Positions 2,024 to 19,480 of a stretch of DNA of 64,000 nucleotides are shown piece by piece. Within the stretch, counting starts at the first letter, position 1, and every line of letters starts with the position of its first letter. Both the position numbers and the translations under genes were made by a program. This DNA is from Pseudacidovorax sp. RU35E. Its GTDB lineage: Bacteria > Pseudomonadota > Gammaproteobacteria > Burkholderiales > Burkholderiaceae_C. The stretch is taken from positions 62,001 through 126,000 of the forward strand of contig NZ_FTMY01000002.1 in the NCBI RefSeq assembly GCF_900156165.1, written 5' to 3'. Below the pieces are notes generated by a model, which was not told the DNA's origin, searched no databases, and saw only the letters and a list, made by a program, of their open reading frames with translations.

Positions 2024-3181
2024 TCACTTGGCGGCCGGGGCCGGGGCGGCGGCCGCCGGGGCCGGCTGGCCCTGCACCTGCACCACGTCGCCGTCGTTGA
2101 GGAAGGCGGCGCCGCGCTCGACAAGCTTCATCTCCGGCTTCACGCCTTCGGCGATGGCGATGCGGTCGCCGGCGCGCTGGCCAGTCGTCACGCGGCGCAT
2201 GGCGACCTTGCCGTCGGCGCCCACCTCGAACACGCTGGCGAAGCCGTCGCGCACCACCACGGCGGACTGCGGCACGGTGAGTTGCTCGATGCGACCGAGC
2301 ATGAATTCGCCGCGCGCGTACATGCCGGCGCGCACGTCGCCGTTGGCGGGCAGGTCGACGTAGACCAGCGCATTGCGCGTCTGCGGATCGACCGTGGGCG
2401 CCAGAGCGCGCACCGTGCCCTCGACCGTCACGCCGCTGGCGGCCGTCACACGGGCCTTCTGGCCCACGCGCACCCTGGGCAGCTCGTTGGAGGCCACCTC
2501 GGCCCGCCATTCGAGGCGGCCGCGGCGCACCAGGCGGAAGAGCTCGGCGCCCGAGCCCACCACCGCGCCCACGGTGGCCGTGCGCGAGGAGATGACACCG
2601 TCGTCCGGTGCCAGCACCTGCGTGTTGCGCTGGCGCACCTGCTGCGCCTGCAGCGCGGCGCGGGCGGCCTCGACGCGGGCCTTGGCGGTCTGGCCGGTGG
2701 TGAGGTACTGGTTGATCTGCGCCTGGCTCAGCGCGCCGGTCGCCGACAGCGTGCGGGCACGCTCGGCATTGGCGGCGGCATCGGCTGCGGCGGCCTCGGC
2801 CTCGGCCAGGCTGGCGCGGGCCTGGGCGACTTCGGCCTGCACCGTGTCGCCCGAGAAGGTGGCCAGCACCTGGCCCTTCTTGACCAGGTCGCCCACGTTC
2901 ACCCGCACGTCGGCCAGGCGCAGGCCGGCCGCCTCGGAGCCGATGATGGCCTCCTGCCACGCGGCGATGTTGCCGTTGGCCGGCAGGCCGGCCACCAGGT
3001 CGGCGGGCTGCGGCTGCACCACCGTGACGGTGAGCGCGGGGCGGGCGGTGGCGGCGGGCTTGTCGGCCTTTTTGGCCGCCTCGCCTTCCGCGGGCTTGCC
3101 GCGCAGCAGGAAGAAGGCGGCCACGGCCACGAGGGCCACGACCAGGATCGCGATGAGGAGCGGGCGTCGGGAGCGTTGCAT
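2024..3181 (-). CDS. RND efflux periplasmic adaptor (membrane fusion protein)
   Basis: Adaptor of 385 residues that bridges the RND permease and the outer-membrane channel. The start at MQRSRRPLL was chosen because a hydrophobic anchor (residues about 7-25, LLIAILVVALVAVAAFFLL) follows at once; the frame is open further upstream but there it lies across the channel gene. There is no lipobox, so it is probably a membrane-anchored adaptor. Residues about 105-185 are rich in Ala, Glu, Gln and Arg and form the alpha-helical hairpin. They are flanked by lipoyl-type halves, the second near VLAPDDGVISSRTATVG, then a beta-barrel and a membrane-proximal domain. The C-terminus is an Ala/Pro tail. Gene order channel-adaptor-permease and short spacing indicate one transcript. 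Confidence 0.93.
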   Translation of the reverse strand: MQRSRRPLLIAILVVALVAVAAFFLLRGKPAEGEAAKKADKPAATARPALTVTVVQPQPADLVAGLPANGNIAAWQEAIIGSEAAGLRLADVRVNVGDLVKKGQVLATFSGDTVQAEVAQARASLAEAEAAAADAAANAERARTLSATGALSQAQINQYLTTGQTAKARVEAARAALQAQQVRQRNTQVLAPDDGVISSRTATVGAVVGSGAELFRLVRRGRLEWRAEVASNELPRVRVGQKARVTAASGVTVEGTVRALAPTVDPQTRNALVYVDLPANGDVRAGMYARGEFMLGRIEQLTVPQSAVVVRDGFASVFEVGADGKVAMRRVTTGQRAGDRIAIAEGVKPEMKLVERGAAFLNDGDVVQVQGQPAPAAAAPAPAAK

Positions 3182-3209
3182 GGTGATCTTTCCGGGCGCG
3201 GGGCAGGGT

Positions 3210-4808: not shown

Positions 4809-5485
4809 GCGGAAGGTTCCTCGGAGGCATTGGCCGCGCGGCGGCCCCGTTCGGCCGCCACCAGGGCCAGCGCCATGCCGGCCAGCCGTTCGGCCCACTG
4901 GTCGACGGCACGGGGGCTGCGCAGCAGGCCGGGGCGGATCACGTCGATGAAGTCGCGCGTCACGTAGGGCTGCATCGCCAGGCCGGTGACGGCGAAGGCC
5001 AGGCGATGGATGTCGTCGTCCACGCGGGCATCCAGATGCCGGGCCAGCAGCCGCACCATGGCCTGGTGCGGGCCCTTGATCTCGCGCTCCACCTCGGTGG
5101 CCCACTGGCTGCTGGGCTCCAGCATCTCGCGCAGGTGCAGGCGCATGCACTGGCGCACGCGCTCACCCAGCTTGAGCGGCTCCAGGTAGGCGCGCATGAA
5201 CACCGTCAGCGCCTCGTCGAGCGACAGGCCGGGCGCGGACCACAGGGCGGTGGTCTCTTCGGCCTTGCCGCCCATGGGCTCGGTGAAGCAGGCGGCGTAC
5301 AGCCCGGCCTTGTCGCCGAAGTAGTAGCTGATGGCGCCGATGTTCATGTCGGCGGCCGCGGCGATGGCGCGGGTGGAGGTCTTGGCGAAGCCCTGGTCGG
5401 CGAACAGGGCGAGCGCGGCCAGCAGCAGGCGCTGGCGGGCCTCGGCCCCGTCGCCCCGGGCCGGCTTGGGCGTGGCGGTGGTCAT
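4805..5485 (-). CDS. TetR-family repressor of the efflux operon (CerR-like C-terminus)
   Basis: One-component regulator, 226 residues. Residues about 18-65 hold the TetR helix-turn-helix (LFADQGFAKTSTRAIAAAA, then NIGAISYYFGDKAGLY). The rest is an all-helical ligand-binding and dimer domain that resembles the DUF1956/CerR type (inference). It is the first gene of the efflux operon and overlaps the channel gene, so it most likely represses its own transcript until a pump substrate binds. A palindrome just upstream (5509-5524) is the likely operator. The family is certain; the ligand is unknown. Confidence 0.93.
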   Translation of the reverse strand: MTTATPKPARGDGAEARQRLLLAALALFADQGFAKTSTRAIAAAADMNIGAISYYFGDKAGLYAACFTEPMGGKAEETTALWSAPGLSLDEALTVFMRAYLEPLKLGERVRQCMRLHLREMLEPSSQWATEVEREIKGPHQAMVRLLARHLDARVDDDIHRLAFAVTGLAMQPYVTRDFIDVIRPGLLRSPRAVDQWAERLAGMALALVAAERGRRAANASEEPSA

Positions 5486-5508
5486 GCGGGTGCGGATTAG
5501 ACCACCGA

Positions 5509-5524
5509 AATCAAACGAATGATT
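5509..5524. promoter_or_regulatory. Palindromic operator candidate for the TetR regulator
   Basis: AATCA-aacgaa-TGATT is a perfect 5-bp inverted repeat in an AT-rich patch within the 92-bp spacer between tetR (leftward) and the DUF2130 gene (rightward). It lies 24 bases upstream of the tetR start, where it would overlap the leftward promoter. TetR proteins usually bind such short palindromes. Assignment is by position only. Confidence 0.55.
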
Positions 5525-5564
5525 AAAGTCTGTGCCGCGGTCGCGCCTTTGTCCGACGCCGCGC

Positions 5565-5570
5565 TAGGAT
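5565..5570 (+). promoter_or_regulatory. -10 element (TAGGAT) close to the DUF2130 start
   Basis: TAGGAT ends seven bases before ATG 5578. If it is a -10 box, transcription would begin at or next to the start codon and the mRNA would be leaderless or nearly so. The embedded AGGA could instead act as a ribosome binding site eight bases from the ATG. I see no convincing -35. Confidence 0.4.
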
Positions 5571-5577
5571 CGCCCGC

Positions 5578-6984
5578 ATGCAAGACATCAAGTGCCCCCA
5601 CTGCGGCAAGGCCTTCAAGATCGACGAGTCCGGCTACGCGGACATCCTCAAGCAGGTGCGCGACAGCGACTTCGACCGCCAGCTGCACGAGCGGCTGGAA
5701 CTGGCCGAGCAGGACAAGCGCAGTGCGGTCGAACTCGCGCGGGCCCAGCTCGCCAGCGAGCTGGAGAAAAAGGCCGCGGCCCGGGAGGCCGAGATCCTCG
5801 CGCTCAAGGCCAGGCTCGACGCCGGCGAGGTGGCGCGCCGGCTCGCGGTGAACGAGGCGCTGGGCAGCATCGAGCGCGAGCGCGACCAGCTGGCTCACGA
5901 ACTGGCACAGGCCCGGCAGGAGCGCGAATCCGCGGCCCGCCTGGCCGAGGCGCGGCTCGCGAGCGAAGTGCAGAAGGCCGCGGCTGCCAAGGACGCCGAG
6001 ATCCAGGCGCTGAAGTCCCGCCTCGACGCTGGCGGCATGGCGCAGCGGCTGGCCGTCACCGAAGCCGTTGGCGCGGTCGAGAAGGAGCGCGATGCCCTGC
6101 GCAACAACCTGGAGCGCGTGGCGCTCGAAAAGCAGGTGGCCGAGCAGATGCTCAAGGACAAGTACGAGACGCAGATCCGCGACCGCGACGACGCCATCGA
6201 GCGCCTGCGCGACATGAAGGCGCGGCTGTCCACCAAGATGGTGGGCGAGACGCTGGAGCAGCACTGCGAGACCGAGTTCAACCGCATCCGCGCCACCGCC
6301 TTTCCGCGTGCCTACTTCGAGAAGGACAACGACGCCCGCAGCGGCAGCAAGGGCGACTACATCTTCCGCGACCTCGACGAGGACGGCACCGAGATCGTCT
6401 CGATCATGTTCGAGATGAAGAACGAGAGCGACGCCACCGCCACGCGCAAGAAGAACGAGGACTTCTTCCGCGAGCTGGACAAGGACCGCACCGAGAAGGG
6501 CTGCGAGTACGCGGTACTGGTCTCGCTGCTGGAGCCCGAGAGCGAGCTCTACAACACCGGCATCGTCGACGTGTTCCACCGCTACCCGAAGATGTACGTG
6601 GTGCGGCCGCAGTTCTTCCTGCCCATGGTCACGCTGCTGCGCAATGCGGCCACCAAGGCGCTGGCCTACAAGTCGGAGCTGGCGCTGGTCAAGGCGCAGA
6701 ACCTGGACATCACCCGCTTCGAGACGCAGCTGGACGACTTCAAGGCCGCCTTCGGCCGCAACTGGCGGCTGGCGTCCGATGGCTTCGAGGAGGCCGTCAA
6801 GCGCATCGACGAAGCCATCAAGGACCTGGAGAAGACCAAGGACGCGCTCTACAAGTCGGCCAACAACCTGCGCCTGGCCAACGACAAGGCCGAGGACCTG
6901 ACGATCAAGAAGCTCACGCGCGGCAACCCGACCATGGCGGCCAAGTTCGCCGAGCTCAAGGACGCCGGCAGCACCGACGACTAG
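5578..6984 (+). CDS. DUF2130 (COG4487-type) coiled-coil protein with a nuclease-like C-terminal core
   Basis: Protein of 468 residues and unknown function. It opens with a zinc-knuckle-like [11 protein letters not shown] (only two cysteines). Residues about 30-220 are a charged Glu/Arg/Ala-rich segment that reads as a long coiled coil. Around residues 245-320 lies the conserved DUF2130 core: [12 protein letters not shown], then [10 protein letters not shown], then [17 protein letters not shown]. The spaced Asp and the E-x-K on a predicted strand resemble a PD-(D/E)XK nuclease active site; that is my inference, not an established activity. The C-terminus is again helical and lysine-rich. It is a single gene with its own probable promoter, divergent from the efflux operon and 27 bases before the sigma-54 activator. 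Confidence 0.85.
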
Positions 6985-6997
6985 GCCATGGCGCCGC

Positions 6998-7003
6998 TAC
7001 GAT
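6998..7003 (+). promoter_or_regulatory. -10 element (TACGAT) just upstream of the sigma-54 activator start
   Basis: TACGAT lies eight bases before ATG 7012 and no Shine-Dalgarno sequence intervenes. This favours ATG 7012 over the in-frame ATG 6988 and suggests a leaderless mRNA. A -35 is not clear. Confidence 0.4.
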
Positions 7004-7011
7004 CGCGCGCC

Positions 7012-8525
<1,514 letters not shown>

Positions 8526-8529
<4 letters not shown>

Positions 8530-8801
8530 GCGTCAAGGCACTGCGCGCCACCTTCGGGCCCAACTGCCATTGGTGCGGCCTGCCGATGGATTTCGACGAG
8601 CCCGCCGGCCGGCCGGAGTCGGCCACCATCGAGCATCTGGTCGACTCGACCTTCGGCGGTGTCCGCTCCTCGAAGCACCGGCGGCTGGCGCATGCGGCCT
8701 GCAACCATGCGCGCAACCAGTTCCGCCAGCAGGCCGAGCGCCAGTTCGAGCAGTGGATCACCGAGCGCCAGACCTCCGGGAAAGCCCTGCCTGAAAATTG
8801 A
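8526..8801 (+). CDS. Small HNH-type protein, 91 residues
   Basis: A compact zinc-binding HNH-like protein. The order CHWCGLPM, then ATIEHLVDSTFGG, then LAHAACNHARNQ gives a Cys pair, the central His and the trailing C-N-x-x-R-N found in HNH/McrA-type folds. Members are often nucleases, but short ones without extra domains are mostly uncharacterised, so activity is not proven. It begins at GTG 8526, which overlaps the activator stop (GTGA), so the two are co-translated. It sits between the activator and the sigma-54 promoter. A role in the same response is possible but unsupported. Confidence 0.75.
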
Positions 8802-8848
8802 ACATTCGACCGAAAATCAGGCATGCCAGATGTTCGTAGATCAGGCAT
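8788..8848. promoter_or_regulatory. Repeated TGCCTGA/TCAGGCA motifs: candidate upstream activator sites
   Basis: The heptamer TGCCTGA at 8788-8794 is followed by its inverse TCAGGCA at 8817-8823 and again at 8841-8847. The last two lie within a direct repeat ATCAGGCAT spaced 24 bases apart. They lie roughly 75-140 bases upstream of the expected start of the sigma-54 promoter, where enhancer-binding proteins normally bind. The first copy overlaps the end of the HNH gene. Confidence 0.5.
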
Positions 8849-8898
8849 AAAGCAGTTTGATCGAATGAAGTAGCCTTTGATATCAACGGTTTAGCAAG

Positions 8899-8913
8899 TG
8901 GCACGAACTGTGC
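8899..8913 (+). promoter_or_regulatory. Sigma-54 (-24/-12) promoter of the PHA/ABC transporter operon
   Basis: TGGCACG at 8899-8905, four bases, then GTGC at 8910-8913 and AA. This matches the sigma-54 consensus TGGCACG-N4-TTGC with one change, and the invariant GG and GC have the correct spacing. Expected transcription start is near 8925, with AGGAG at 8934-8938 and ATG at 8946. The gene for a sigma-54 activator lies immediately upstream, which supports the call. Confidence 0.85.
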
Positions 8914-8945
8914 AATGTTCAGTCACCTTTTTCAGGAGACAACGA

Positions 8946-10136
8946 ATGAACCGTCGCCACCTCGTCGCCTTGGCCGCGCTCGCCGCCTCTGTCGCGGTCC
9001 CCGCTTCGGCCTGGGCCCAGTCCAACGAGATCCGCATCGCCCACGTCTACAGCAAGACCGGCCCGCTGGAGGCCTACGGCAAGCAGACCCAGACCGGCCT
9101 GATGATGGGCCTGGACTACGCCACGGGCGGCACCATGATGGTCAACGGCAAGAAGATCGTCGTGATCGAGAAGGACGACCAGGGCAAGCCTGACCTCGGC
9201 AAGTCGCAGCTCGCCGCCGCCTATTCCGACGACAAGGCCGCGCTGGCCGTCGGCCCCACCTCTTCGGGCGTGGCGCTGGCCATGCTGCCGGTGGCCGAGG
9301 AATACAAGAAGCTGCTGATCGTCGAGCCCGCGGTGGCCGACTCGATCACCGGCGACAAGTGGAACAAGTACATCTTCCGCACCGGCCGCAATTCGAGCCA
9401 GGACGCCATCTCCAACGCCGTGGCGCTCGACAAGCCGGGCACCACCATCGCCACGCTGGCCCAGGACTACGCCTTCGGCCGCGACGGCGTGAAGGCCTTC
9501 AAGGACGCGGTCAAGAAGGCCAAGATCGTCCATGAGGAATACCTGCCGCAGAACACCACGGACTTCACCGCCGGTGCGCAGCGCCTGATCGACAAGCTCA
9601 AGGACCAGCCCGGCCGCAAGGTGATCTGGATCGTGTGGGCCGGCGCGGGCAACCCCTTCAAGATCGCCGACCTGGACCTCAAGCGCTACGGCATCGAGAT
9701 CGCCACCGGCGGCAACATCCTGCCGGCCATGGCCAGCTACAAGAACTTCCCCGGCATGGAAGGCGCCACCTACTACTACTTCGGCATTCCGAAAAACCCG
9801 GTGAACGAGGCGCTGGTGTCCATGCACTACAAGGAATTCAAGAGCCCGCCGGACTTCTTCACCGCCGGCGGTTTCTCGGCCGCCATGGCCGTCGTCACCG
9901 CGCTCAAGAAGACCGGCGGCGACACCGGCACCAACAAGCTCATCAGCACCATGGAAGGCATGAGCTTCGACACGCCCAAGGGCACCATGACCTTCCGCAA
10001 GGAAGACCACCAGGCCCTGCAGAGCATGTACCACTTCAAGATCAAGGTGGACCCGGCCTTCGCCTGGGGCGTGCCGGAACTGGTGCACGAGATCAAGCCG
10101 TCGGAGATGGACATTCCGATCCGCAACAAGAGATAA
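8946..10136 (+). CDS. ABC transporter periplasmic binding protein, branched-chain amino acid (LivK) type
   Basis: High-affinity receptor of a HAAT-family importer, 396 residues. A Sec signal peptide (MNRRHLVALAALAASVAVPASAWA) precedes the mature start QSNEIRIAHVYSKTG. The body is a type-I periplasmic binding fold, with stretches such as KIVVIEKDDQGKPDLGKSQL and PTSSGVALAMLPVAEEY. AGGAG seven bases before ATG 8946 decides the start; an upstream in-frame GTG would lie in the -24 box. First gene of a sigma-54 operon with LivG/F/H/M-like subunits. This family also imports amides, urea, aromatic acids and organic acids. The neighbouring PHA depolymerase suggests a hydroxyalkanoate ligand (inference). 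Confidence 0.92.
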   Translation: MNRRHLVALAALAASVAVPASAWAQSNEIRIAHVYSKTGPLEAYGKQTQTGLMMGLDYATGGTMMVNGKKIVVIEKDDQGKPDLGKSQLAAAYSDDKAALAVGPTSSGVALAMLPVAEEYKKLLIVEPAVADSITGDKWNKYIFRTGRNSSQDAISNAVALDKPGTTIATLAQDYAFGRDGVKAFKDAVKKAKIVHEEYLPQNTTDFTAGAQRLIDKLKDQPGRKVIWIVWAGAGNPFKIADLDLKRYGIEIATGGNILPAMASYKNFPGMEGATYYYFGIPKNPVNEALVSMHYKEFKSPPDFFTAGGFSAAMAVVTALKKTGGDTGTNKLISTMEGMSFDTPKGTMTFRKEDHQALQSMYHFKIKVDPAFAWGVPELVHEIKPSEMDIPIRNKR

Positions 10137-10141
10137 CAGGG

Positions 10142-10323
10142 CGACATCCCGCATGCCGCTTCGCGGCTCCCCCTTCTGATACTCGAAGGGGGCACACCCC
10201 ACGGCCCGGCAAAGCCGGTTCCGTGGATAACGGACCACCGACATCCCCCAGGCCGCTTAGCGGCTCCCCCTTCTGATACTCGAAGGGGGCACACCCCACG
10301 GCCCGGCAAAGCCGGTTCCGTGG
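10142..10323 (+). repeat. Tandem pair of hairpin-rich intergenic repeats
   Basis: Two near-identical 71-bp units, 10156-10226 and 10253-10323, sit 97 bp apart; similarity extends a few bases further upstream of each (from about 10142 and 10239). Each unit can form two stem-loops: CCCCCTTC/GAAGGGGG, and a second one with CCGG-C-aaa-G-CCGG inside CCACGG/CCGTGG. A diverged copy lies at 33281-33352. In both places the repeat follows a binding-protein gene and has the same orientation to transcription, as REP elements do between malE and malF. A role in protecting the upstream mRNA or damping downstream expression is inferred. Confidence 0.85.
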
Positions 10324-10373
10324 GTGTCCCCGCCCAGCGCCACTACGGCTCACCTTCCTTCAGGAGACGCACC

Positions 10374-11825
10374 ATGCAGAAGTTCACCGCGCCCCTCAGG
10401 CGCGCCGCCGGTGTGCTCGTGTCGGCCTGGCTGCTGGCTGGCGCGGCGGCGGCCGTGCCGCTGCCGGAGCTCAATATCGACCCGGCACAGGTCAGCGTGT
10501 CGGGCGTGTCCTCGGGCGGCTATATGGCGGTGCAACTGCACGTGGCCTATTCGGCCACCTTCAAGAAGGGTGCGGGCGTGGTGGCGGGCGGGCCGTACTA
10601 CTGTGCCGAGGGCTCGGTGGTCTACGCCACCGGCCGCTGCATGGCGCACGACACGAGCATCCCGGTCAGCAGCCTGGTGACCACCACCAACAACTGGGCC
10701 ACGAGTGGCGCCATCGACCCGGTGGCCAACCTCGCGGCCAGCCGGCTCTACCTGTTCTCGGGCACGCTCGACAGCGTGGTCAAGACGGCCGTGATGGACG
10801 ACCTGCGCAGCTACTACGGCGCCTTCGTGCCGGCGGCCAACATCGCCTACAAGAAGGACCTGGCGGCCGAGCATTCCTTTGTGACGGACGACTACGGCAG
10901 CGCCTGCTCGGTCAAGGGCGACCCCTACATCGACGACTGCAACTTCGACCTGGCCGGCGCGCTGCTGCAGCAGATCTACGGCCCGCTCAATGCGCGCAAC
11001 GTGTCGACGCTGGGCGGCAGCTTCATCGAGTTCGACCAGCGCGGCTTCGTCGGCGGCCATGCCATGGCGCAGACCGGCTGGGCCTATGTGCCCGCGGCCT
11101 GCGCCAGCGGCAGTGCCACCTGCCGGCTGCACGTGGCGCTGCACGGCTGCAAGCAGAACACGGCGCAGATCGGCCAGCAGTACGTGCGCAACACCGGCTA
11201 CAACCGCTGGGCCGACACGAACAACATCGTCGTGCTGTACCCGCAGACCGGCGTGACGGCCACCAACGGTTGCTGGGACTGGTGGGGCTATGACAGCCCC
11301 GACTATGCAAAAAAGGCGGGCCCGCAGATGGCCGCCATCCAGGCCATGGTCAAACACCTGTCGGGCGGCACGGCCACGGCCGCGCTCGCGGCGCCGGGCG
11401 GCCTGACGGCCTCTGCCGCCACGGCCAGCAGTATGAAGCTGAGCTGGTCTGCCGTGCCGGGTGCGGCGGGCTATGTGGTCTACCGCAACGGCGGGCGGCG
11501 CAACCCCACGCCGGTCGCCGGCACCAGCTTTACCGACACCGACCTCGTCGCGGGCAGCAGCTACGGCTGGACGGTGCGTGCGGTGAATGCCGCCGGCGCC
11601 CGCGGCGCGCCCTCGGCCACGGCCACCGCCAGCACCACCGGTATGGCGCCCGTGTGCACCACCACCGACAACTACAGCCACACCGTGGCCGCGCGGGCCT
11701 ATGCGCTCTACGGCTTCGCCTATGCCTATGGCTCCAACCAGGGCATGGGGTTGTGGAACATCTACATCGAGACCACCCTGAAGAAGACCGCCGCCGGCTA
11801 CTACGAGGTCGGCACCTGCTACTGA
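10374..11825 (+). CDS. Secreted short-chain-length PHA (PHB) depolymerase, type 2 catalytic domain, with FnIII linker
   Basis: Extracellular esterase of 483 residues that cleaves poly(3-hydroxybutyrate)-type polyesters to oligomers and monomers. A signal peptide (to about residue 26, ending AGAAAAVPLPE) is followed by the lipase box GVSSGGY near residue 43; a serine box this close to the N-terminus marks a type 2 catalytic domain. Further conserved pieces are LHVALHGCKQNTAQIG and WDWWGYDSPDYAKKAGPQMA. A fibronectin type III linker spans about 338-422 and a C-terminal domain with two Cys (about 425-483, NYSHTVAARAYALYGFAYAY) probably binds polymer. AGGAG at 10362-10366 supports ATG 10374. Unusually, it sits inside an ABC importer operon, between the binding protein and the first ATPase. 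Confidence 0.9.
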   Translation: MQKFTAPLRRAAGVLVSAWLLAGAAAAVPLPELNIDPAQVSVSGVSSGGYMAVQLHVAYSATFKKGAGVVAGGPYYCAEGSVVYATGRCMAHDTSIPVSSLVTTTNNWATSGAIDPVANLAASRLYLFSGTLDSVVKTAVMDDLRSYYGAFVPAANIAYKKDLAAEHSFVTDDYGSACSVKGDPYIDDCNFDLAGALLQQIYGPLNARNVSTLGGSFIEFDQRGFVGGHAMAQTGWAYVPAACASGSATCRLHVALHGCKQNTAQIGQQYVRNTGYNRWADTNNIVVLYPQTGVTATNGCWDWWGYDSPDYAKKAGPQMAAIQAMVKHLSGGTATAALAAPGGLTASAATASSMKLSWSAVPGAAGYVVYRNGGRRNPTPVAGTSFTDTDLVAGSSYGWTVRAVNAAGARGAPSATATASTTGMAPVCTTTDNYSHTVAARAYALYGFAYAYGSNQGMGLWNIYIETTLKKTAAGYYEVGTCY

Positions 11826-11845
11826 ACGCGACAGGACATCCGCAA

Positions 11846-12610
11846 TTGCTTGAAACCCAGAACCTCACCATCCGCTTCGGCGGGCATGTGGCGGTGAATG
11901 CCGTCAGCTGCCGCTTCGCGCCGGGCACGCTGACGGCCATCGTCGGCCCGAACGGGGCGGGCAAGACCACCTACTTCAACCTGGTCTCGGGCCAGCTCAA
12001 GGCCACCGAGGGCAAGGTGCTGCTGAACGGCCGCGACCTGTCGGGGCTGCCGGCCTCGGCGCGCACCCGCGCCGGCCTCGGCCGCGCCTTCCAGCTGACC
12101 AATCTGTTCCCCAACCTCACGGTGCTGGAGAACGTGCGCCTGGCCGTGCAGGCCGCGCACGAAGGGCCGCACCGGCGCGGCCTCAACCTCTGGAGCATCT
12201 GGAGCGACCACCGCGCGCTGACCGAGCGCGCCGACGCGCTGCTGGCCGAGACCAACCTCAAGGCCCGCGAGCACGACGTGGTGGCCAGCCTGCCGCACGG
12301 CGACCAGCGCAAGCTGGAAGTGGCACTGCTGATGGCGCTGGAGCCGCAGGTCTTCATGTTCGACGAGCCCACGGCCGGCATGAACGCGGCCGAGGCGCCG
12401 GTCATCCTCGACCTGATCCGCCGGCTCAAGCAGGACAAGACCAAGACCATCCTGCTGGTCGAGCACAAGATGGACGTGGTGCGCGAGCTGGCCGACCGCA
12501 TCATCGTGCTGCACAACGGCACGCTGGTGGCCGATGGCGAGCCGGCCGAGGTGATCGCCTCGCCGGTCGTGCAGGAAGCCTACCTGGGCGTGGCGAAGGA
12601 GGCGGCATGA
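11846..12610 (+). CDS. ABC transporter ATPase, LivG type (TTG start)
   Basis: Nucleotide-binding subunit of the HAAT importer, 254 residues. Walker A is VGPNGAGKTTYFNL, the signature region is unusual (ASLPHGDQRKLEVALLMALE, with PHGDQR where LivG usually has YGxQR), and Walker B is VFMFDEPTAGMN followed by the H-loop LLVEHKMD. The homologous N-terminus LETQNLTIRFGG begins directly at TTG 11846, with AGGA at 11833-11836; the longer upstream frame is antisense-like and lies over the depolymerase. The gene starts 20 bases after the depolymerase stop and overlaps the next gene by four bases. Confidence 0.92.
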   Translation: MLETQNLTIRFGGHVAVNAVSCRFAPGTLTAIVGPNGAGKTTYFNLVSGQLKATEGKVLLNGRDLSGLPASARTRAGLGRAFQLTNLFPNLTVLENVRLAVQAAHEGPHRRGLNLWSIWSDHRALTERADALLAETNLKAREHDVVASLPHGDQRKLEVALLMALEPQVFMFDEPTAGMNAAEAPVILDLIRRLKQDKTKTILLVEHKMDVVRELADRIIVLHNGTLVADGEPAEVIASPVVQEAYLGVAKEAA

Positions 12611-13332
12611 ACGACGCACTGCTCACGCTCGAAGGCGTGCACACCCACATCGGCGCCTACCACATCCTCCACGGCGTGGACTTGGTGGTGCCCAAGGGCC
12701 AGCTCACCATGCTGCTGGGCCGCAACGGCGCCGGCAAGACGACCACGCTGCGCACGATCATGGGCCTGTGGAAGGTTGCGCAGGGCCGCGTGCAGTTTGC
12801 AGGCAAGAGCATCGCCAACCTGCCGACGCCGCAGATCGCCGACCTGGGCATCGCCTATGTGCCCGAGACCATGGGCATCTTCGCGGACCTGACCGTCAAG
12901 GAGAACATGCTGCTGGCCGCCCGCGGCGCCCGCCGCGCGCAGGACATGGACGAGGCGCGCCTGAAGTGGATCTTCCGGCTCTTCCCCGCGGTGGAGAAGT
13001 TCTGGAACCACCCAGCCGGCAAGCTCTCCGGCGGCCAGAAGCAGATGCTGGCCGTCTCCCGCGCCATCGTCGAGCCGCGCGAGCTGCTCATCATCGACGA
13101 GCCCAGCAAGGGCCTGGCGCCCGCCATCATCAACAACATGATCGACGCCTTCGCCGAGCTCAAGGCCAGCGGCGTGACCATCCTGCTGGTGGAGCAGAAC
13201 ATCCACTTCGCCCAACGCCTGGGCGACACCGTCGCCGTGATGGACAACGGCCGCGTGGTGCACGCCGGCGGCATGGCCGAGTTCTCGGCCGACACGCAAC
13301 TGCAGCAACGCCTGCTGGGACTGGCCCTATGA
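12607..13332 (+). CDS. ABC transporter ATPase, LivF type
   Basis: Second nucleotide-binding subunit, 241 residues. Walker A LGRNGAGKTTTLRTIMG, signature KLSGGQKQMLAVSRAIVEPR and Walker B LLIIDEPSKGLAP are all intact, followed by VEQNIHFA. LivF-type ATPases pair with LivG in a heterodimer under the two permeases. The ATG overlaps the stop of the preceding ATPase gene, and its own stop overlaps the next start; both are ATGA junctions. Confidence 0.93.
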   Translation: MNDALLTLEGVHTHIGAYHILHGVDLVVPKGQLTMLLGRNGAGKTTTLRTIMGLWKVAQGRVQFAGKSIANLPTPQIADLGIAYVPETMGIFADLTVKENMLLAARGARRAQDMDEARLKWIFRLFPAVEKFWNHPAGKLSGGQKQMLAVSRAIVEPRELLIIDEPSKGLAPAIINNMIDAFAELKASGVTILLVEQNIHFAQRLGDTVAVMDNGRVVHAGGMAEFSADTQLQQRLLGLAL

Positions 13333-14321
13333 CGACCCTCGCCAAAGACATCGACTGGAAGCCGCTGCTGCTGGTGCCCGCGCTCGCGCTGGTGGCCCTG
13401 CCGCTGGTGGGCTCGCCCTCCACCTGGCTCACGCTGACCATCGCCGGCCTGGCCATGGGCATGATCGTGTTCATCATCGCCTCGGGCCTCACGCTGGTCT
13501 TCGGGTTGATGGACGTGCTGAATTTCGGCCACGGGGTGTTCATCGCCCTGGGTGCCTTCGTGGCCACCAGCGTGCTGGGCGCCATGGGCGACTGGACGCA
13601 GTCCACCTCCATCCTCACCAACCTGGTGGCGGTGCTGCCGGCCATGGTGGTGGCCATGCTGGTGGCGGGCGCGGTGGGCCTGGCCTTCGAGCGCTTCATC
13701 GTGCGGCCGGTCTACGGCCAGCACTTGAAGCAGATCCTCATCACCATGGGCGGCATGATCATCGGCGAGGAGCTGATCAAGGTGATCTGGGGCCCGGCGC
13801 AGATCCCGCTGCCGCTGCCCGAGGGCCTGCGCGGCTCCTGGCTGTGGGGCGATGCGGCGGTGGAGAAGTACCGTGTGCTCGCGGTGATCGTCGGCGCGCT
13901 GGTCTTCGGCCTGCTGGCCTGGACGCTGGCCCGCACCAAGATCGGCCTCTTGATCCGCGCCGGCGTGCAGGACCGCGAGATGGTCGAGTCCCTGGGCTAC
14001 CGCATCCGCGTGCTCTTCGTCGGCATCTTCGTGGCGGGCAGCGCGCTGGCCGGCCTGGGCGGCGTGATGTGGGGCCTGTACCAGCAGAACGTGATCCCGC
14101 AGATGGGGGCGCAGGTCAATGTGCTGATCTTCATCGTCATCATCATCGGCGGCCTGGGCTCGACCACCGGCGCGCTGATCGGTGCACTGCTGGTGGGGCT
14201 GATGGCCAACTACACCGGCTTCGTCGCGCCCAAGGTGGCGCTGTTCTCCAACATCGCGCTGATGGTGGCGATCCTGCTGTGGCGGCCGCAGGGCGTTTAT
14301 CCCGTGGCGGGCAGCCGCTGA
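13329..14321 (+). CDS. ABC transporter permease, LivH type
   Basis: Inner-membrane channel subunit, 330 residues with about eight hydrophobic helices. Typical LivH features are the early segment GLTLVFGLMDVLNFGHGVF and the late segment IIIGGLGSTTGALIGALLVG near the coupling site. The ATG at 13329 overlaps the livF-like stop and fixes the start; the frame is open further upstream only as a shadow of the ATPase gene. Confidence 0.93.
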   Translation: MTTLAKDIDWKPLLLVPALALVALPLVGSPSTWLTLTIAGLAMGMIVFIIASGLTLVFGLMDVLNFGHGVFIALGAFVATSVLGAMGDWTQSTSILTNLVAVLPAMVVAMLVAGAVGLAFERFIVRPVYGQHLKQILITMGGMIIGEELIKVIWGPAQIPLPLPEGLRGSWLWGDAAVEKYRVLAVIVGALVFGLLAWTLARTKIGLLIRAGVQDREMVESLGYRIRVLFVGIFVAGSALAGLGGVMWGLYQQNVIPQMGAQVNVLIFIVIIIGGLGSTTGALIGALLVGLMANYTGFVAPKVALFSNIALMVAILLWRPQGVYPVAGSR

Positions 14322-14339
14322 AAGGGGAGGGGACCGATC

Positions 14340-15404
14340 ATGCTTCGACGCCTTCTCTCCAACGACCTGCCGCGCAGCAAGGTGCTGGCGGTGCTGCTGC
14401 TGGCCGTGCTGCTGGGCCTGGCCTTCGCGCCCTTCCTGTTCCCGGGCGTCAAGGCGCTCAACGTGGCGGCCAAGATCCTGGTCTTCATCGTGCTGGTCGC
14501 CAGCTTCGACTTGCTGCTGGGCTACACCGGCATCGTGAGCTTCGCCCACACCATGTTCTTCGGCATCGGCGCCTACGGCGTGGCCATTGCAGCCACGCGC
14601 ATGGGCGCGGGCTGGGACGCGGTGGTCGTCGGCGTGCTGTGCGCGCTGGCGGTCTCGCTGGTGCTGGCACTGGCGGTGGGCCTGTTCTCGCTGCGGGTGC
14701 GGGCCATCTTCTTCGCCATGATCACGCTGGCAGTGGCCTCGGCCTTCCAGACGCTGGCTTCGCAGCTGTCGGACTTCACCGGCGGCGAGGACGGGCTGAC
14801 CTTCAAGCTGCCAGAGCTGATCTCGCCCAGCTTCGAATTCAGCGAGGAGCCCTTCCTCGGTGTCTCGCTGGATGGCCGGCTGCTGTGCTACTACCTGCTC
14901 TTCGTGCTGGCCGTGGTGCTGGTGCTGGCGCTGCTGCGCATCGTCAACTCGCCCTTCGGCCGCGTGCTGCAGGCGATCCGCGAGAACGAGTTCCGGGCCG
15001 AGGCCATCGGCTACCGCGTGGTGGTGTTCCGCACGCTGTCGGCCGTGCTGTCGGCTCTGTTCGCCACGCTGGCCGGCGCCATGCTCGCCATCTGGCTGCG
15101 CTACAACGGCCCGGACACCTCGCTCAGCTTCGAGATCATGGTCGACGTGCTGCTGATCGTGGTGATCGGCGGCATGGGCACCATCTACGGCGCGGCCATC
15201 GGCGCGGTGCTGTTCGTGGTGGCGCAGAGCTACCTGCAGGACCTGCTGCGCCTGGGCAGCGAGGCGGCGAGCGGGCTGCCCTGGCTGTCGGCCGTGCTCT
15301 CGCCCGACCGCTGGCTGCTGTGGCTGGGCGTGCTCTTCGTGCTCTCGGTCTACTACTTTCCCACCGGCATCGTCGGCAAGCTGCGCAGCAGGAGCGCGAA
15401 ATGA
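14340..15404 (+). CDS. ABC transporter permease, LivM type
   Basis: Second permease, 354 residues. It carries the family landmarks LGYTGIVSFAHTMFFGIGAY near residue 60, LQAIRENEFRAEAIGYRV, and MGTIYGAAIGAVLF. It starts 18 bases after the LivH-like gene with GGGGAGG upstream of the ATG, and its stop overlaps the hydrolase start (ATGA). It completes a full HAAT importer of one binding protein, two permeases and two ATPases. Confidence 0.93.
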   Translation: MLRRLLSNDLPRSKVLAVLLLAVLLGLAFAPFLFPGVKALNVAAKILVFIVLVASFDLLLGYTGIVSFAHTMFFGIGAYGVAIAATRMGAGWDAVVVGVLCALAVSLVLALAVGLFSLRVRAIFFAMITLAVASAFQTLASQLSDFTGGEDGLTFKLPELISPSFEFSEEPFLGVSLDGRLLCYYLLFVLAVVLVLALLRIVNSPFGRVLQAIRENEFRAEAIGYRVVVFRTLSAVLSALFATLAGAMLAIWLRYNGPDTSLSFEIMVDVLLIVVIGGMGTIYGAAIGAVLFVVAQSYLQDLLRLGSEAASGLPWLSAVLSPDRWLLWLGVLFVLSVYYFPTGIVGKLRSRSAK

Positions 15405-16276
15405 GCGTCACCCCCACTTCCCACTATGCGCAGCTGGTCGGCCGCGAGATCCACTGGATGGATTGGGGCGATGCAGCCGCGCCGGCCGTCATCGCCTGGC
15501 ATGGCCTGGCCCGTACCGGCCGCGACATGGACGAACTGGCGGCGCACCTGGTGGCCGAGGGCTGGCGCGTGATCTGCCCCGACACACTGGGGCGCGGCCT
15601 CAGCCAGTGGAGCCCTGCGCCGGACGAGGAATACCAGCTGGCCTTCTATGCGCGCCTGGCCGACGCGCTGTGCGAACACCTGGGTCTGGCGCGCGTGCAC
15701 TGGGTGGGCACCTCCATGGGCGGCGCCATCGGCACGGTCTGCGCATCCGGCCTCGTGGTCCCGACGATGAAGAAGCGCATCGCCGCCGTGGTGCTCAACG
15801 ACAACGCGCCGCAGCTCGCCTCGGCCGCCATCGAGCGCATCAAGGCGTATGCGGGCAACCCGCCGGCCTTCGACACGGTCAGTGAGCTGGAAGGCTTCCT
15901 GCGCACGGTCTACAAGCCCTACGGCTGGCTCAGTGATGTGCAGTGGCGGCGCATGGCGGAGACCTCGACGCGACGCCTGCCCGACGGGCGCGTGACGCCC
16001 CACTATGACCCCGCCATGGTGCGCCAGTTCACCGTGCACGACGACGACTACTTGATCTGGCCGCACTACGACGCCATCGAAGTGCCGGTGATGATCCTGC
16101 GCGGCGCCGAGTCCGATCTGGTGCTGCCGGAGACCGTCGAGGCGATGCGCCACCGCGGGCCCGGTGCGGCGGGGCGGCTGACGGTGCTGGAGGTGCCGGG
16201 GTGCGGGCATGCGCCGGCGTTGAACGTCCCAGCGCAGCTGGAGCCCATCGCTGCCTTCCTGGGCGCATCCCGCTAG
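15401..16276 (+). CDS. Alpha/beta hydrolase, possible intracellular hydroxyalkanoate-oligomer esterase
   Basis: Soluble alpha/beta hydrolase of 291 residues with no signal peptide, so probably cytoplasmic. The oxyanion-side motif is WHGLARTG, the nucleophile elbow is GTSMGGA (Ser near 107), the acid is in LRGAESDLVLP, and the catalytic His is in VPGCGHAPAL. The core is a classic fold of this superfamily, whose members include lactonases, oligomer hydrolases and C-C hydrolases. Its last place in the sigma-54 operon behind a PHA depolymerase and an importer suggests that it cuts imported 3-hydroxybutyrate oligomers. That role is inferred from context only. Confidence 0.88.
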   Translation: MSVTPTSHYAQLVGREIHWMDWGDAAAPAVIAWHGLARTGRDMDELAAHLVAEGWRVICPDTLGRGLSQWSPAPDEEYQLAFYARLADALCEHLGLARVHWVGTSMGGAIGTVCASGLVVPTMKKRIAAVVLNDNAPQLASAAIERIKAYAGNPPAFDTVSELEGFLRTVYKPYGWLSDVQWRRMAETSTRRLPDGRVTPHYDPAMVRQFTVHDDDYLIWPHYDAIEVPVMILRGAESDLVLPETVEAMRHRGPGAAGRLTVLEVPGCGHAPALNVPAQLEPIAAFLGASR

Positions 16277-16317
16277 CACGCCCAGGCAGTGCGGGCCGTC
16301 GACAGGCCCCAAACGCA

Positions 16318-16343
16318 ACAAGGCCCGCATGTGCGGGCCTTGT
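16318..16343. terminator. Hairpin terminator between the hydrolase operon and the PA2169-type gene
   Basis: ACAAGGCCCGCA and TGCGGGCCTTGT form a perfect 12-bp stem with a two-base nominal loop. It lies 41 bases after the hydrolase stop and 45 bases from the stop of the convergent gene, so it could serve both. There is no T-run on either side beyond a few bases. Confidence 0.7.
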
Positions 16344-16388
16344 CGTTCGTGCCTGCGCCGCATGCGGGCGCCGGCCTGGTGCCGATGA

Positions 16389-16847
16389 TCAGCTGGCGGC
16401 GCGTGCCTGGTCGCGCAGGCTCTTGATCTGGTCATGGTTCTTCTGGGCGCCCTGGGCCTGGCGCTCGATCACTGCACGGACGTCGGCCGGCAGATCCTGC
16501 TGCAGCGCCTTGCGATAACGGGCCACTGCCGCGTCTTCGCCGCGCTCGCATTCGTTGAGCATGGACTCTTCGCTGTTGGCGCCGACGGCGCCCTTGACGT
16601 GCACCCAGCCGCGGTGCAGGGCGCCGGAGGCGGTGCCGCCGTCGGCGGGCTTGCCGCCCAGGCGAACGACGAGTTCTTCCAGTTCGCGCGCGGCCTGCGC
16701 GCATTCGGTGGCGCGATTGGCGAAGGTGGTGCGCAGGCTGCTGTTCTCCACCTCTTCGGCGCACAGGCGGAAGCCATACTCGCCGTCGCGCGAGTTCTCC
16801 AGCAGGTCGTTCAGGGTGTCGATGATGTCGTTGGTGGTCTGGGCCAT
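16389..16847 (-). CDS. PA2169-family four-helix-bundle protein (DUF2383)
   Basis: Protein of 152 residues, predicted all-helical and acidic, matching the PA2169/DUF2383 ferritin-like bundle family. Recognisable pieces are NDIIDTLNDLLENSRDGEYG at the N-terminus and LHRGWVHVKGAV plus ECERGEDAAVARYRKALQ in the second half. Family members are stress-associated and of unknown function. The start at MAQTTND has AAGGA about eight bases upstream; an in-frame extension further upstream is arginine-rich and unlikely. Confidence 0.85.
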   Translation of the reverse strand: MAQTTNDIIDTLNDLLENSRDGEYGFRLCAEEVENSSLRTTFANRATECAQAARELEELVVRLGGKPADGGTASGALHRGWVHVKGAVGANSEESMLNECERGEDAAVARYRKALQQDLPADVRAVIERQAQGAQKNHDQIKSLRDQARAAS

Positions 16848-17035
16848 GGTGGATTCCTTGTCCGATGGGGGTGTCGAGGGCCGGATTTCGCGGGAGCGCG
16901 ACATCCGGCTGCGGAACCGCCATGGTTGAGGGTCGCACCCGCGCGGATCGTCGTCGCGCCGCGCGCGCCGCTGTAGGTGCAGCAGCCTTGGCACCGCCCG
17001 CCAAGCGCGGGTGCCGGGTCAGCGTGGACCGTGCG

Positions 17036-17275
17036 CTACGAGAGTTGCAGCAGCTCGGCCGGACTCGCCATGTGCAGCCGCATGAGCTCGTCGGCCACGC
17101 GGGCGCCGCTCAGCGGCGTCACGCCCTCGCGCGCGGCATAGGCCAGCAGACTGTTGCGCAGCGTGATGCGCGAGACGAAGAAGCTGCGCTCGCGCAGATG
17201 CGCCAGGATCTCGTCGACGACGACCTCGAACTGGACGGCTTCATCGGGCGGGACGTGAGGGGCGGTGTCGGTCAT
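17036..17275 (-). CDS. Small conserved-looking protein, 79 residues, unknown function
   Basis: Not recognised. The product begins MTDTAPHVPPDE and contains a helical, charged middle (FEVVVDEILAHLRERSFFVS, then NSLLAYAAREGVTPLSG), ending LHMASPAELLQLS. It looks like a small soluble helical protein. The long open frame upstream is antisense to the kinase gene and is not counted. It is divergent from the hybrid kinase across a 108-base spacer. Codon use matches the neighbours. Moderately confident that it is a real gene. Confidence 0.6.
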   Translation of the reverse strand: MTDTAPHVPPDEAVQFEVVVDEILAHLRERSFFVSRITLRNSLLAYAAREGVTPLSGARVADELMRLHMASPAELLQLS

Positions 17276-17371
17276 GGAACTCGGCGGGTGTGTGGCAGGT
17301 GGAAACGCGCAGACGGGCGAAGCAAGCTTCGTGCGAGCCTCGACCGCGTCCGTGGGTGCAGTGTGCCTCCC

Positions 17372-17377
17372 TACAAT
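17372..17377 (+). promoter_or_regulatory. -10 element (TACAAT) at the hybrid kinase start
   Basis: TACAAT ends six bases before the GTG at 17384, and no Shine-Dalgarno lies between. Transcription would begin at or beside the start codon, so the message is probably leaderless. This also supports GTG as the real start. Confidence 0.5.
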
Positions 17378-17383
17378 CCGCCG

Positions 17384-19480
17384 GTGAACACGCCGTGCTC
17401 CGCTCCCTTCCTGGCCGGTGGCGGCCGTGCCACCGAACTCATCCTGCAGCGGGACTGGCGGGACCATCCTCTTGGGCCGCCCGGACAGTGGCCCGAAGGG
17501 CTCAAGGTCGCACTCAGCCTCGTCGTCAACTCGCCCGAGTCGATGATCCTCTGCTGGGGCCCGCAGCTCCACTTCTTCTTCAACGACACCTACATCCCGC
17601 TGCTCGGCCCGCGCGTCGAATGGGCCATGGGTGCTCCCTTCGACGAGGTGTGGGCCGACGCGCTGGCGCAGGCGCATCCGATCATTGCGCAGGCCATGGC
17701 CGGCCAGCGCCAGCGCTTCACCGACCTGTACTGGAAGCTCGCCACCGACCGCGGTCAGTCGGACACCTGGTGGACCTTCTCGTACTCGCGCATCCTCGAT
17801 GCCGACGGCGAGATCGCTGGGCTGTTCATCTTCACCAACGAGACCACCGACAAGGTCCTTGCCGACGCCGCCCTGCGCGAAGTGACCGAGCGCCAGCGCC
17901 AGTCGCTGCAGCAGATGCCCGGCTTTGTCGCCATCCTGAGCGGGCCGGATCACCGCTACGACTACGTCAACGACGCCTATGTCGCCATTGCGGGTCAGCG
18001 CGACTTCCTGGGCCGCACGGTGCGCGAGGCCTTGCATGAACTGGAGGGGCAGGGCTTCTACGAGCTGCTCGACCAGGTCTATGCCAGCGGCCAGTCCTAT
18101 GCCACCAAGGCCATGCCCATCCACCTGGGCAACAAGACGCCGGAGGAGGCCGACCGTTTCATCGACTTCGTGTATGAGCCGATCCGCGATGCGGCCGGCG
18201 CGGTGACCGGCATCTTCGTGGGTGGCTACGACGTGACCGAGCGGGTCCGGGCCGAGCGGCTGCTGGCCGAGGCCAACCGCGAACTCGAGCAACGCGTCAA
18301 TCTGGCCGTGAAGGAGCTGATGGCGGCGGAAGAGGCGCTGCGGCATTCGCAGAAGATGGAGGCGGTGGGCCAGCTCACCGGTGGGCTGGCGCACGACTTC
18401 AACAACCTGCTCACCGCCGTCACCGGCTCGCTGGAGCTGATCCAGCGTCATGCCGCCCGGGGACGCTTCGCCGAGATCGACCGCTACGTGGGCACGGCGC
18501 AGGCGGCGGCGCGGCGCGCGGCGGCGCTGACGCACCGGCTTCTGGCCTTCTCGCGGCGGCAGACCCTGGCACCCACCGCCGCCAACCTCAACGACCTGGT
18601 GGTTGGCATGGAGGAGCTGATCCGGCGTACCGTCGGCCCGAGCATCCATGTGGAGACGGTGGGCGCCATGGCCCTGTGGACCACCTTCGTGGACGTTCCC
18701 CAGCTCGAGAACGCGTTGCTCAACCTGTGCATCAACGGCCGCGATGCCATGCCCGATGGCGGACGCATCACCATCGAGACGGCCAACCGCTGGATCGATG
18801 CGCAGACCGCCCGCACGCTGGGGCTGGCGGCGGGCCAGTACGTCTCGCTCAGCGTGACCGACACCGGCACCGGCATGACGCCCGAAGTGCAGGCCAAGGC
18901 CTTCGACCCCTTCTTCACCACCAAGCCCATGGGGCAGGGCACCGGACTTGGGCTGTCGATGATCTACGGCTTCGCCCAGCAGTCGGGCGGGCATGTGCGC
19001 ATCTATTCGGAGCTGGGGCAGGGCACCACCATGTGCATCTACCTGCCACGCCACTTCGGTCCAGCCGAAGCGCCCGCGGACATGACCCAGGCCCTGGCGC
19101 CGCAGGGTGCGGCGGGCGAGACCGTGCTGGTGGTCGACGACGAGCCGGCCGTGCGCATGTTGATGCTCGAATGCCTGGGCGAGCTCGGCTATACGCTGCT
19201 GGAAGCGCATGACGGGCCGTCGGCCCTGCGTCTGCTGGAATCAGGCGTTCGCATCGACCTGCTGGTGAGCGACGTCGGCCTGCCCGGCGGCTTCAATGGG
19301 CGGCAGCTGGCGGATGCAGCGCGCGTGCACCGGCCGCAGCTCAAGGTGCTGTTCGTCACTGGCTATGCGGAAAACGCGCTGATCGGCAACGGCCACCTTG
19401 AGCCCGGCATGGCCGTGCTCACCAAGCCCTTCCCGCTGGAGCAATTGGGCGTGCGGGTGCGCGAGATGCTGGGGGGCTGA
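17384..19480 (+). CDS. Hybrid sensor histidine kinase (two PAS, HisKA, HATPase, receiver)
   Basis: Soluble two-component sensor of 698 residues with no obvious membrane helix. Two PAS-type domains occupy about 30-150 and 165-290 (LHFFFNDTYIPLLG; DYVNDAYVAIAGQRDF). The dimerisation box GGLAHDFNNLLTAV carries the phosphoacceptor His near 337. The ATPase domain has the N-box LNLCINGRDAMPDGG and G-boxes DTGTGM and GTGLGLSMIYGF. A C-terminal receiver (about 578-695) has the DDE acid patch and the phospho-Asp in LLVSDVGLPGG. No output regulator lies beside it. It is a paralogue of the kinase at 19893-22607, which shares the same N-terminal PAS and kinase core. Confidence 0.92.
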   Translation: MNTPCSAPFLAGGGRATELILQRDWRDHPLGPPGQWPEGLKVALSLVVNSPESMILCWGPQLHFFFNDTYIPLLGPRVEWAMGAPFDEVWADALAQAHPIIAQAMAGQRQRFTDLYWKLATDRGQSDTWWTFSYSRILDADGEIAGLFIFTNETTDKVLADAALREVTERQRQSLQQMPGFVAILSGPDHRYDYVNDAYVAIAGQRDFLGRTVREALHELEGQGFYELLDQVYASGQSYATKAMPIHLGNKTPEEADRFIDFVYEPIRDAAGAVTGIFVGGYDVTERVRAERLLAEANRELEQRVNLAVKELMAAEEALRHSQKMEAVGQLTGGLAHDFNNLLTAVTGSLELIQRHAARGRFAEIDRYVGTAQAAARRAAALTHRLLAFSRRQTLAPTAANLNDLVVGMEELIRRTVGPSIHVETVGAMALWTTFVDVPQLENALLNLCINGRDAMPDGGRITIETANRWIDAQTARTLGLAAGQYVSLSVTDTGTGMTPEVQAKAFDPFFTTKPMGQGTGLGLSMIYGFAQQSGGHVRIYSELGQGTTMCIYLPRHFGPAEAPADMTQALAPQGAAGETVLVVDDEPAVRMLMLECLGELGYTLLEAHDGPSALRLLESGVRIDLLVSDVGLPGGFNGRQLADAARVHRPQLKVLFVTGYAENALIGNGHLEPGMAVLTKPFPLEQLGVRVREMLGG

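Follow-up and report, generated by a model that had tools for sequence, protein, structure and literature searches.

Organization of the locus

The window, a 64,000-nucleotide (nt) stretch of the contig NZ_FTMY01000002.1 (positions 62,001 to 126,000) from the 5.7 Mb genome of Pseudacidovorax sp. RU35E, contains an operon in which the gene of a polyhydroxyalkanoate (PHA) depolymerase stands among the genes of an ATP-binding cassette (ABC) importer of the HAAT family. We regard this operon as a candidate system for scavenging poly(3-hydroxybutyrate) (PHB), in which the importer would take up 3-hydroxybutyrate (3HB), its oligomers or both. An earlier note on this DNA had described the gene order, the tight packing of the genes, a -24/-12 promoter site and a neighbouring sigma-54 activator gene, all of which were confirmed (operon 8946-16276, activator 6988-8529). 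Its assignment of the enzymes and importer subunits to families was likewise borne out by Pfam and NCBIfam profile matches to the translations of the window, on which the protein families given here are based. The features of the locus are as follows (positions in the window).

6988..8529, + strand: sigma-54 activator with PAS, AAA+ and Fis-type HTH domains (Pfam Sigma54_activat 222 bits, AAA_lid_14, HTH_8, PAS_4)
8526..8801, + strand: small open reading frame (ORF) of 91 aa, HNH-like by eye, outside the proposed function
8788..8804, + strand: enhancer-like imperfect palindrome, copy 1 (3 mismatches to TGYCTGA-N3-TCAGRCA)
8807..8823, + strand: enhancer-like imperfect palindrome, copy 2 (3 mismatches to the same motif)
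8831..8847, + strand: enhancer-like imperfect palindrome, copy 3 (3 mismatches to the same motif)
8899..8914, + strand: -24/-12 sigma-54 promoter site TGGCACGAACTGTGCA (GG-N10-GC)
8946..10136, + strand: LivK-type periplasmic binding protein (SBP; Peripla_BP_6 180 bits), putative binder of 3HB or 3HB oligomers
10142..10226, no strand assigned: dispersed hairpin repeat, copy 1
10239..10323, no strand assigned: dispersed hairpin repeat, copy 2
10374..11825, + strand: type 2 short-chain PHA depolymerase (NF050059 406 bits) with catalytic domain, fn3 and a conserved C-terminal stretch
11846..12610, + strand: livG-type ATPase with TTG start (ABC_tran, BCA_ABC_TP_C)
12607..13332, + strand: livF-type ATPase (ABC_tran)
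13329..14321, + strand: livH-type permease (BPD_transp_2)
14340..15404, + strand: livM-type permease (BPD_transp_2)
15401..16276, + strand: alpha/beta hydrolase without visible signal peptide (Abhydrolase_1 74 bits), putative cytosolic 3HB-oligomer esterase

The HAAT importer set is complete in this one operon, with one Peripla_BP_6 protein, two BPD_transp_2 permeases and two ABC_tran ATPases. Overlaps of 4 nt join livG to livF, livF to livH and livM to the hydrolase gene; livH and livM are separated by 18 nt, and the depolymerase gene and livG by 20 nt. The start of the SBP gene was set by choice at the ATG at 8946, and the longest ORF would begin at the GTG at 8898. The widest gap, 237 nt, lies between the SBP and depolymerase genes. 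It contains two tandem copies of an 85 nt hairpin repeat, which are 96% alike, and a 66 nt piece of this repeat has 38 matches across the source genome. The gap folds much better than shuffled sequence (z -6.3), and the strong hairpins might reduce the expression of the downstream genes relative to the SBP gene. No T-tailed terminator-like site was found on the + strand of this gap, and a simple consensus scan of positions 8500-16500 gave no sigma-70-like site. It is likely that one transcript spans the gap.

Distribution of the operon

The spread of the locus was studied in 250 genomes of the family, with a threshold of E <= 1e-90 for the SBP and with depolymerases counted over the NF050059 cut-off. 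The SBP is encoded in 133 genomes and the depolymerase in 52, of which 36 also contain the SBP. In 32 of these 36 the depolymerase gene is next downstream of the SBP gene, at a distance of at most 2 kb and on the same strand. The SBP gene is doubled in two genomes (G063 and G132). A second PHB enzyme, the 3HB-oligomer hydrolase (PF10605), was found in 74 genomes, full and broken copies taken together. The SBP is present in 49 of them, and in 38 of the 49 the hydrolase gene lies 3.6-7.0 kb downstream of the SBP gene on the same strand, within the same operon. By coordinates, the operons of the 133 importer genomes contain both enzymes in 16 cases, only the depolymerase in 16, only the 3HB-oligomer hydrolase in 22 and neither in 79. 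The last number is an upper bound: in at least two of these genomes (G104 and G142) the contig breaks and the enzyme is actually visible (L179 and L276), and seven loci are cut before livM or show only a distant livM. Most of the 79 loci are not cut short.

The earlier note regarded a depolymerase inside a HAAT operon as a non-standard arrangement. In the family, however, it is widespread, and 32 of the 133 importer genomes have the depolymerase gene next downstream of the SBP gene. The gene neighbourhoods also rule out that the arrangement is unique to the source genome, which would have spoken against the joint role. A second set, partly overlapping the 250 genomes, consisted of 80 named depolymerase loci, two of which begin inside the operon. 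Here livG directly follows the depolymerase gene in 71 of 80 loci, the SBP gene directly precedes it in 69, and neither neighbour is found in nine. The set includes Acidovorax delafieldii, A. facilis, Variovorax paradoxus, Rhizobacter, Ramlibacter, Aquabacterium and Ideonella. Acidovorax sp. GW101-3H11 likewise carries the operon (L059). The gene order is beyond chance, since the identical order recurs in dozens of genomes.

A core with two variable slots

In the fetched neighbourhoods the core of the locus comprises the activator, the SBP, livGFHM and the hydrolase. Among the 111 loci with enough flanking sequence, the hydrolase gene is present in 107 and the activator gene in 93, where activator matches of 56-62% may include paralogues. 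Thus, the activator, the importer and the hydrolase form a near-constant core, and the depolymerase is an optional plug-in. The slot between the SBP gene and livG is occupied by the depolymerase gene in 31 of 130 relatives' loci; in the other 99 nothing was matched there and the gap does not exceed 600 nt. The second slot, between livM and the hydrolase gene, could be read in 115 loci. It is empty by the same measure in 74 and filled in 41. The filled slots contain the 3HB-oligomer hydrolase in 37 cases, a carboxylesterase in three and a second binding protein alone in one. Such a second binding protein also accompanies 11 of the 37 3HB-oligomer hydrolases and one of the three carboxylesterases. 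Four examples, including a shortened one, were tested for PF10605 membership by profile; the others in the slots were assigned by their similarity to two of these, and whole genomes were searched by profile. No enzyme other than the depolymerase, the 3HB-oligomer hydrolase and the carboxylesterase was recognised in the 130 and 115 slots, and no unmatched gap above 600 nt was left in them. Over all gaps from the SBP gene to the hydrolase gene, five exceed 450 nt without a match (L153, L217, L218, L219 and L221); none of these lies in the two variable slots, and none contains a nameable ORF.

The history of the slots was assessed with quick trees, which contain some long branches. On the tree of 130 SBPs, the presence of the depolymerase requires 21 changes and that of the 3HB-oligomer hydrolase 23. 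The tree of 47 depolymerases has two groups with slot members. The first comprises 18 rows with a support of 100; the second comprises 25 with a support of 86 and also includes 10 depolymerases from elsewhere. The pairwise distances of depolymerases and SBPs are uncorrelated (rho 0.001 in 32 genomes, permutation maximum 0.32). Because the two depolymerase groups share the slot without following the SBP tree, the slot between the SBP gene and livG has been filled, emptied or exchanged many times, each time with the same kind of enzyme. Our case for PHB products as the cargo of the importer rests mainly on this recurrence.

The depolymerase

The depolymerase of the window scores 406.2 bits against NF050059, the model of type 2 short-chain-length (scl) PHA depolymerases, whose cut-off is 280. 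Its catalytic domain matches the solved structure 2d80 (E 4e-75), which we take to be the enzyme of Penicillium funiculosum. All 15 aligned sequences, that of the window among them, share the residues S46, D133 and H167, of which S46 and D133 align with residues of 2d80; the three presumably form the catalytic Ser-Asp-His set. The N-terminus resembles a signal peptide by eye, and the enzyme is predicted to be secreted. Its closest relatives among the named loci are depolymerases of Pseudacidovorax with 94-95% identity.

Several loci combine PHB enzymes with other transport genes. A second LivK-type binding protein, whose nearest solved structure is 3lop, accompanies PHB enzymes in L080 (16056-17216), L054 (15119-16276), L097 (11546-12673) and L099 (11605-12714). 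In the Polaromonas loci L097 and L099 the depolymerase gene is followed by this second binding protein alone, without importer genes, and in L105 by the 3HB-oligomer hydrolase gene. Genes that by eye resemble a TctCBA-type transporter lie directly upstream of the PHA depolymerase gene in L099 (6487-9675). In L277 (positions 2853-17755, genome G212), a separate cluster combines a different HAAT importer, only 25-41% identical, with a depolymerase, a 3HB-oligomer hydrolase, the second binding protein, an activator homologue and an SDR dehydrogenase 34% identical to a 3HB dehydrogenase. In two genomes of one genus (L275 and L280), the 3HB-oligomer hydrolase gene is divergent to another HAAT importer (livG 41%).

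The binding protein and its ligand

The SBP gives near-full-length matches to the solved structures 3n0x (E 2e-168) and 3nnd (E 3e-174), presumably from Rhodopseudomonas palustris. Both are listed as "possible substrate binding protein of ABC transporter system", with no ligand named there. The ligand-contacting residues were compared in 132 SBPs, the window and tandem copies included, by an alignment of low identity to LivJ and LivK of Escherichia coli. All 132 keep Ser79 and the Ala100 of LivJ, and in all 132 Thr102 is replaced by Ala and Glu226 by Ile. In LivJ, Ser79, Ala100 and Thr102 are among the residues that touch the amino acid, and Glu226 contacts its amine. This SBP clade thus differs from the LivJ/LivK amino acid binding proteins in the loss of Thr102 and Glu226, which would grip the alpha-amine. 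This residue pattern agrees with a carboxylic acid that lacks an alpha-amine.

The HAAT family name could imply that the operon encodes an importer of amino acids or aromatic acids and that the depolymerase is a passenger using a strong promoter. The structures 4ey3, 4evq and 4f06, which are among the matches of the SBP and which we assume to be HAAT binding proteins for aromatic acids, point in the same direction. Such an importer is nevertheless very improbable, given the loss of the amine-binding residues in 132 of 132 SBPs and the occurrence of two PHB enzymes at two positions and of two depolymerase groups at one, where no other metabolic enzyme was recognised.

The hydrolase and the form of the imported compound

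In the hydrolase, S105, D239 and H270 are invariant in 24 of 24 aligned sequences. An attempt to identify the enzyme by homology was not successful: the 120 listed relatives have generic names or none, and the nearest solved structures are generic alpha/beta hydrolases. The source genome encodes two 3HB dehydrogenases over cut-off. It has no match to the 3HB-oligomer hydrolase PF10605 in a profile search that matched in 79 of the 250 family genomes, and 78 of these 250 score over the cut-off.

The importer may carry 3HB itself or its oligomers. One explanation is that only monomeric 3HB is imported and that the hydrolase has an unrelated ester or lactone as its substrate. The frequent addition of a 3HB-oligomer hydrolase in relatives would agree with this, as the enzyme would deliver monomers if secreted. 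So would the locus L268 from another family of the same class, in which the importer genes are directly followed, after livM, by a 3HB dehydrogenase gene (NF009931 351 bits, cut-off 340; TIGR01963 303 bits, just under 307) and in which no hydrolase match was found. Against it stands the nearly constant retention of the hydrolase (107 of 111 long loci). In the locus L279, moreover, a 3HB-oligomer hydrolase gene adjoins a homologue of the window hydrolase gene, and the 16 kb of this locus contain no importer match. An importer of the monomer only is therefore, in our judgement, somewhat unlikely. We lean towards the import of oligomers rather than free 3HB, because the near-constant hydrolase would be needless for an importer of free 3HB; the adjoining genes in L279 also point to an oligomer role.

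Regulation of the operon

The activator carries the features of a sigma-54 enhancer-binding protein, namely the Sigma54_activat and HTH_8 domains and a GAFTGA motif, which was seen by eye in the translation. The source genome has one rpoN match (Sigma54_DBD 214.8 bits). The promoter site TGGCACGAACTGTGCA begins 47 nt upstream of the SBP start and is one letter off what we take to be the -24/-12 consensus. A site with a score of at least 12.5 of 15.5 was found 40-150 nt before the SBP start in 117 of 129 loci, the window included, where Markov shuffles gave an expectation of 6.6; a control stretch of equal width farther upstream contained only 5 sites. Nine of the 12 loci without the site also lack a visible activator and hydrolase, some through contig ends.

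Facing half-sites TGYCTGA and TCAGRCA with a 3 nt gap occur in 82 of the 101 loci that have both the promoter site and the activator, against 2.6 expected; this motif was derived from the same loci as were counted, and the sole outside control is the downstream background rate. When up to two mismatches are allowed, 84 of 128 loci of relatives have the palindrome within 400 nt, compared with 0.002 per 400 nt downstream. The three copies of the window (8788, 8807 and 8831) are weaker, with three mismatches each, and nine such matches exist in the 64 kb. The 91-aa ORF at 8526-8801, which has no Pfam match, overlaps the stop codon of the activator gene and ends inside the first enhancer-like site. 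A sequence resembling its C-terminus is also found upstream of the SBP gene in Variovorax (L082).

Homologues of the activator were found in other families of the class at five loci in four genomes. At one of them (L284), the SDR gene just downstream of the activator homologue encodes a protein 29% identical to an own 3HB dehydrogenase of the source genome, which is too distant to be named.

Proposed function

We consider it probable that the locus serves sigma-54-controlled scavenging of PHB and that its HAAT importer takes up 3HB, its oligomers or both. The PAS-type activator would bind the upstream palindromes and open the -24/-12 promoter upon sensing a PHB-derived acid, as the conserved sites suggest. 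The type 2 depolymerase, presumably secreted, is expected from its family to degrade PHB set free by other cells to 3HB monomers and short oligomers. The LivK-type protein would capture these products in the periplasm and LivHMGF would import them. In the cytosol, the hydrolase may split the imported dimers and oligomers, and 3HB dehydrogenase could then use the monomer. Relatives supplement the core with the depolymerase, the 3HB-oligomer hydrolase or both. The ligand and joint role suggested in the earlier note thus gain support from the 3HB-oligomer hydrolase in 37 of 41 filled slots, the 3HB dehydrogenase of L268, the lost amine residues and the conserved promoter and enhancer-like sites; 3HB as the ligand is still deduced from sequence.

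A number of observations weigh against this function. Up to 79 of the 133 importer genomes have neither PHB enzyme in the operon, and the same-genus genome G071 lacks the depolymerase. Four genomes (G021, G046, G147 and G212) have the SBP and depolymerase genes apart, and 16 depolymerase genomes have no SBP. An association between the depolymerase and the 3HB-oligomer hydrolase was significant without phylogeny (Fisher p 0.003) and was given up after a sign test on independent pairs (median p 0.125). A scan of 299 genomes for importers outside the family yielded 16 genomes with a match, six of them in the family. None of the importers from the 10 outside genomes is accompanied by a depolymerase or a 3HB-oligomer hydrolase in the fetched stretch, which in L270 ends just behind livM; one has the 3HB dehydrogenase and one a homologue of the downstream hydrolase (49%). 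The hydrolase of the window itself is under the cut-off of the PHA-specific families, with 30.7 against 300 bits for the intracellular scl-PHA depolymerase NF050089 (i_nPHAscl). A strict scan for the palindrome with up to two mismatches, which the window copies with their three would not pass, found none around the two own 3HB dehydrogenase genes. Finally, the activator homologues of other families adjoin TRAP-like genes, identified by eye, in three of four genomes (L285, L286 and L287), and the single TRAP binding protein examined is similar to proteins that bind keto acids and lactate. Because of these neighbours, the ligand range may be wider than 3HB.

Several of these points would be explained if the clade comprised general importers of short, lactate-like hydroxy or keto acids with an esterase, which the PHB enzymes join in some lineages and for which 3HB is one of several ligands. 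The many operons without a PHB enzyme (up to 79 of 133), the nine of 10 outside-family importers with neither a depolymerase, a 3HB-oligomer hydrolase nor a 3HB dehydrogenase alongside, and the TRAP-like neighbours of the activator homologues agree with this, and a HAAT importer of Phaeobacter reportedly takes up lactate. On the other side, nothing was recognised in the two slots other than the second binding protein and hydrolases of the PHB or carboxylester type, and the hydrolase found in 107 of 111 long loci would be needless for a lactate importer. We therefore hold a general acid importer to be unlikely.

A more far-reaching form of PHB scavenging can be put forward tentatively, as a possibility that falls short of even chances. 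The LivKHMGF clade may consist of dedicated 3HB-oligomer importers, and the locus may be a modular polyester locus under one sigma-54 circuit, with the importer and the cytosolic oligomer esterase as core and with two slots that repeatedly receive different PHB hydrolases. Strains with only the core would then feed on oligomers that others set free.

PHB, an abundant polyester of natural origin, is also marketed as a bioplastic, and its extracellular depolymerases are well studied. We know of no dedicated importer for the oligomers derived from it. If the importer clade does carry 3HB compounds, a branch of transporters probably mis-annotated as "branched-chain amino acid" transporters gains a function, and the uptake of PHB products becomes testable with one purified protein. 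The operon could then be used as a genomic marker that separates PHB degraders from bacteria that may only scavenge the fragments.

Comparison with known systems

In polysaccharide utilisation loci, a secreted polymer hydrolase, an uptake system and an internal hydrolase stand under one regulator. The likeness to the locus described here is one of analogy only, with a polyester instead of a glycan and an ABC importer instead of SusCD. A search of openly licensed papers, with subscription journals mostly outside its reach, turned up no description of a HAAT operon with a PHA depolymerase or of an importer for 3HB oligomers; the part of PMC12542648 available to us contains nothing on an importer of this kind. 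With regard to regulation, the available parts of two papers name HbcR (PA2005) of Pseudomonas aeruginosa as the regulator of (R)-3-hydroxybutyrate catabolism (PMC8657755, PMC8694187), acting with sigma-54 (PMC8657755), and the same work is cited in the accessible text of PMC13390443. By description, HbcR is similar to the activator of the window in being a sigma-54 activator with a PAS domain, with 3HB use under RpoN; those parts of PMC8657755 and PMC8694187 mention no HAAT importer alongside it.

The depolymerase shares with the type 2 extracellular scl-PHA depolymerases (NF050059; 2d80) the catalytic domain with lipase-box serine, Asp and His and, behind it, fn3 and a C-terminal stretch that is conserved. 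It differs from them in that its gene belongs to an importer operon with a sigma-54 promoter in front. A urea importer of the UrtABCDE type was considered and rejected, every matching UrtA-E model being under its cut-off. Near-full-length likeness connects the SBP with the binding protein of the structures 3n0x and 3nnd. Similar to other HAAT or LivKHMGF importers, the importer has one binding protein, two permeases and two ATPases. It is distinguished from them by proteins that score far under the Liv and Urt cut-offs, by the gene order K-(depolymerase)-G-F-H-M and by the presence of an ester hydrolase gene in the operon.

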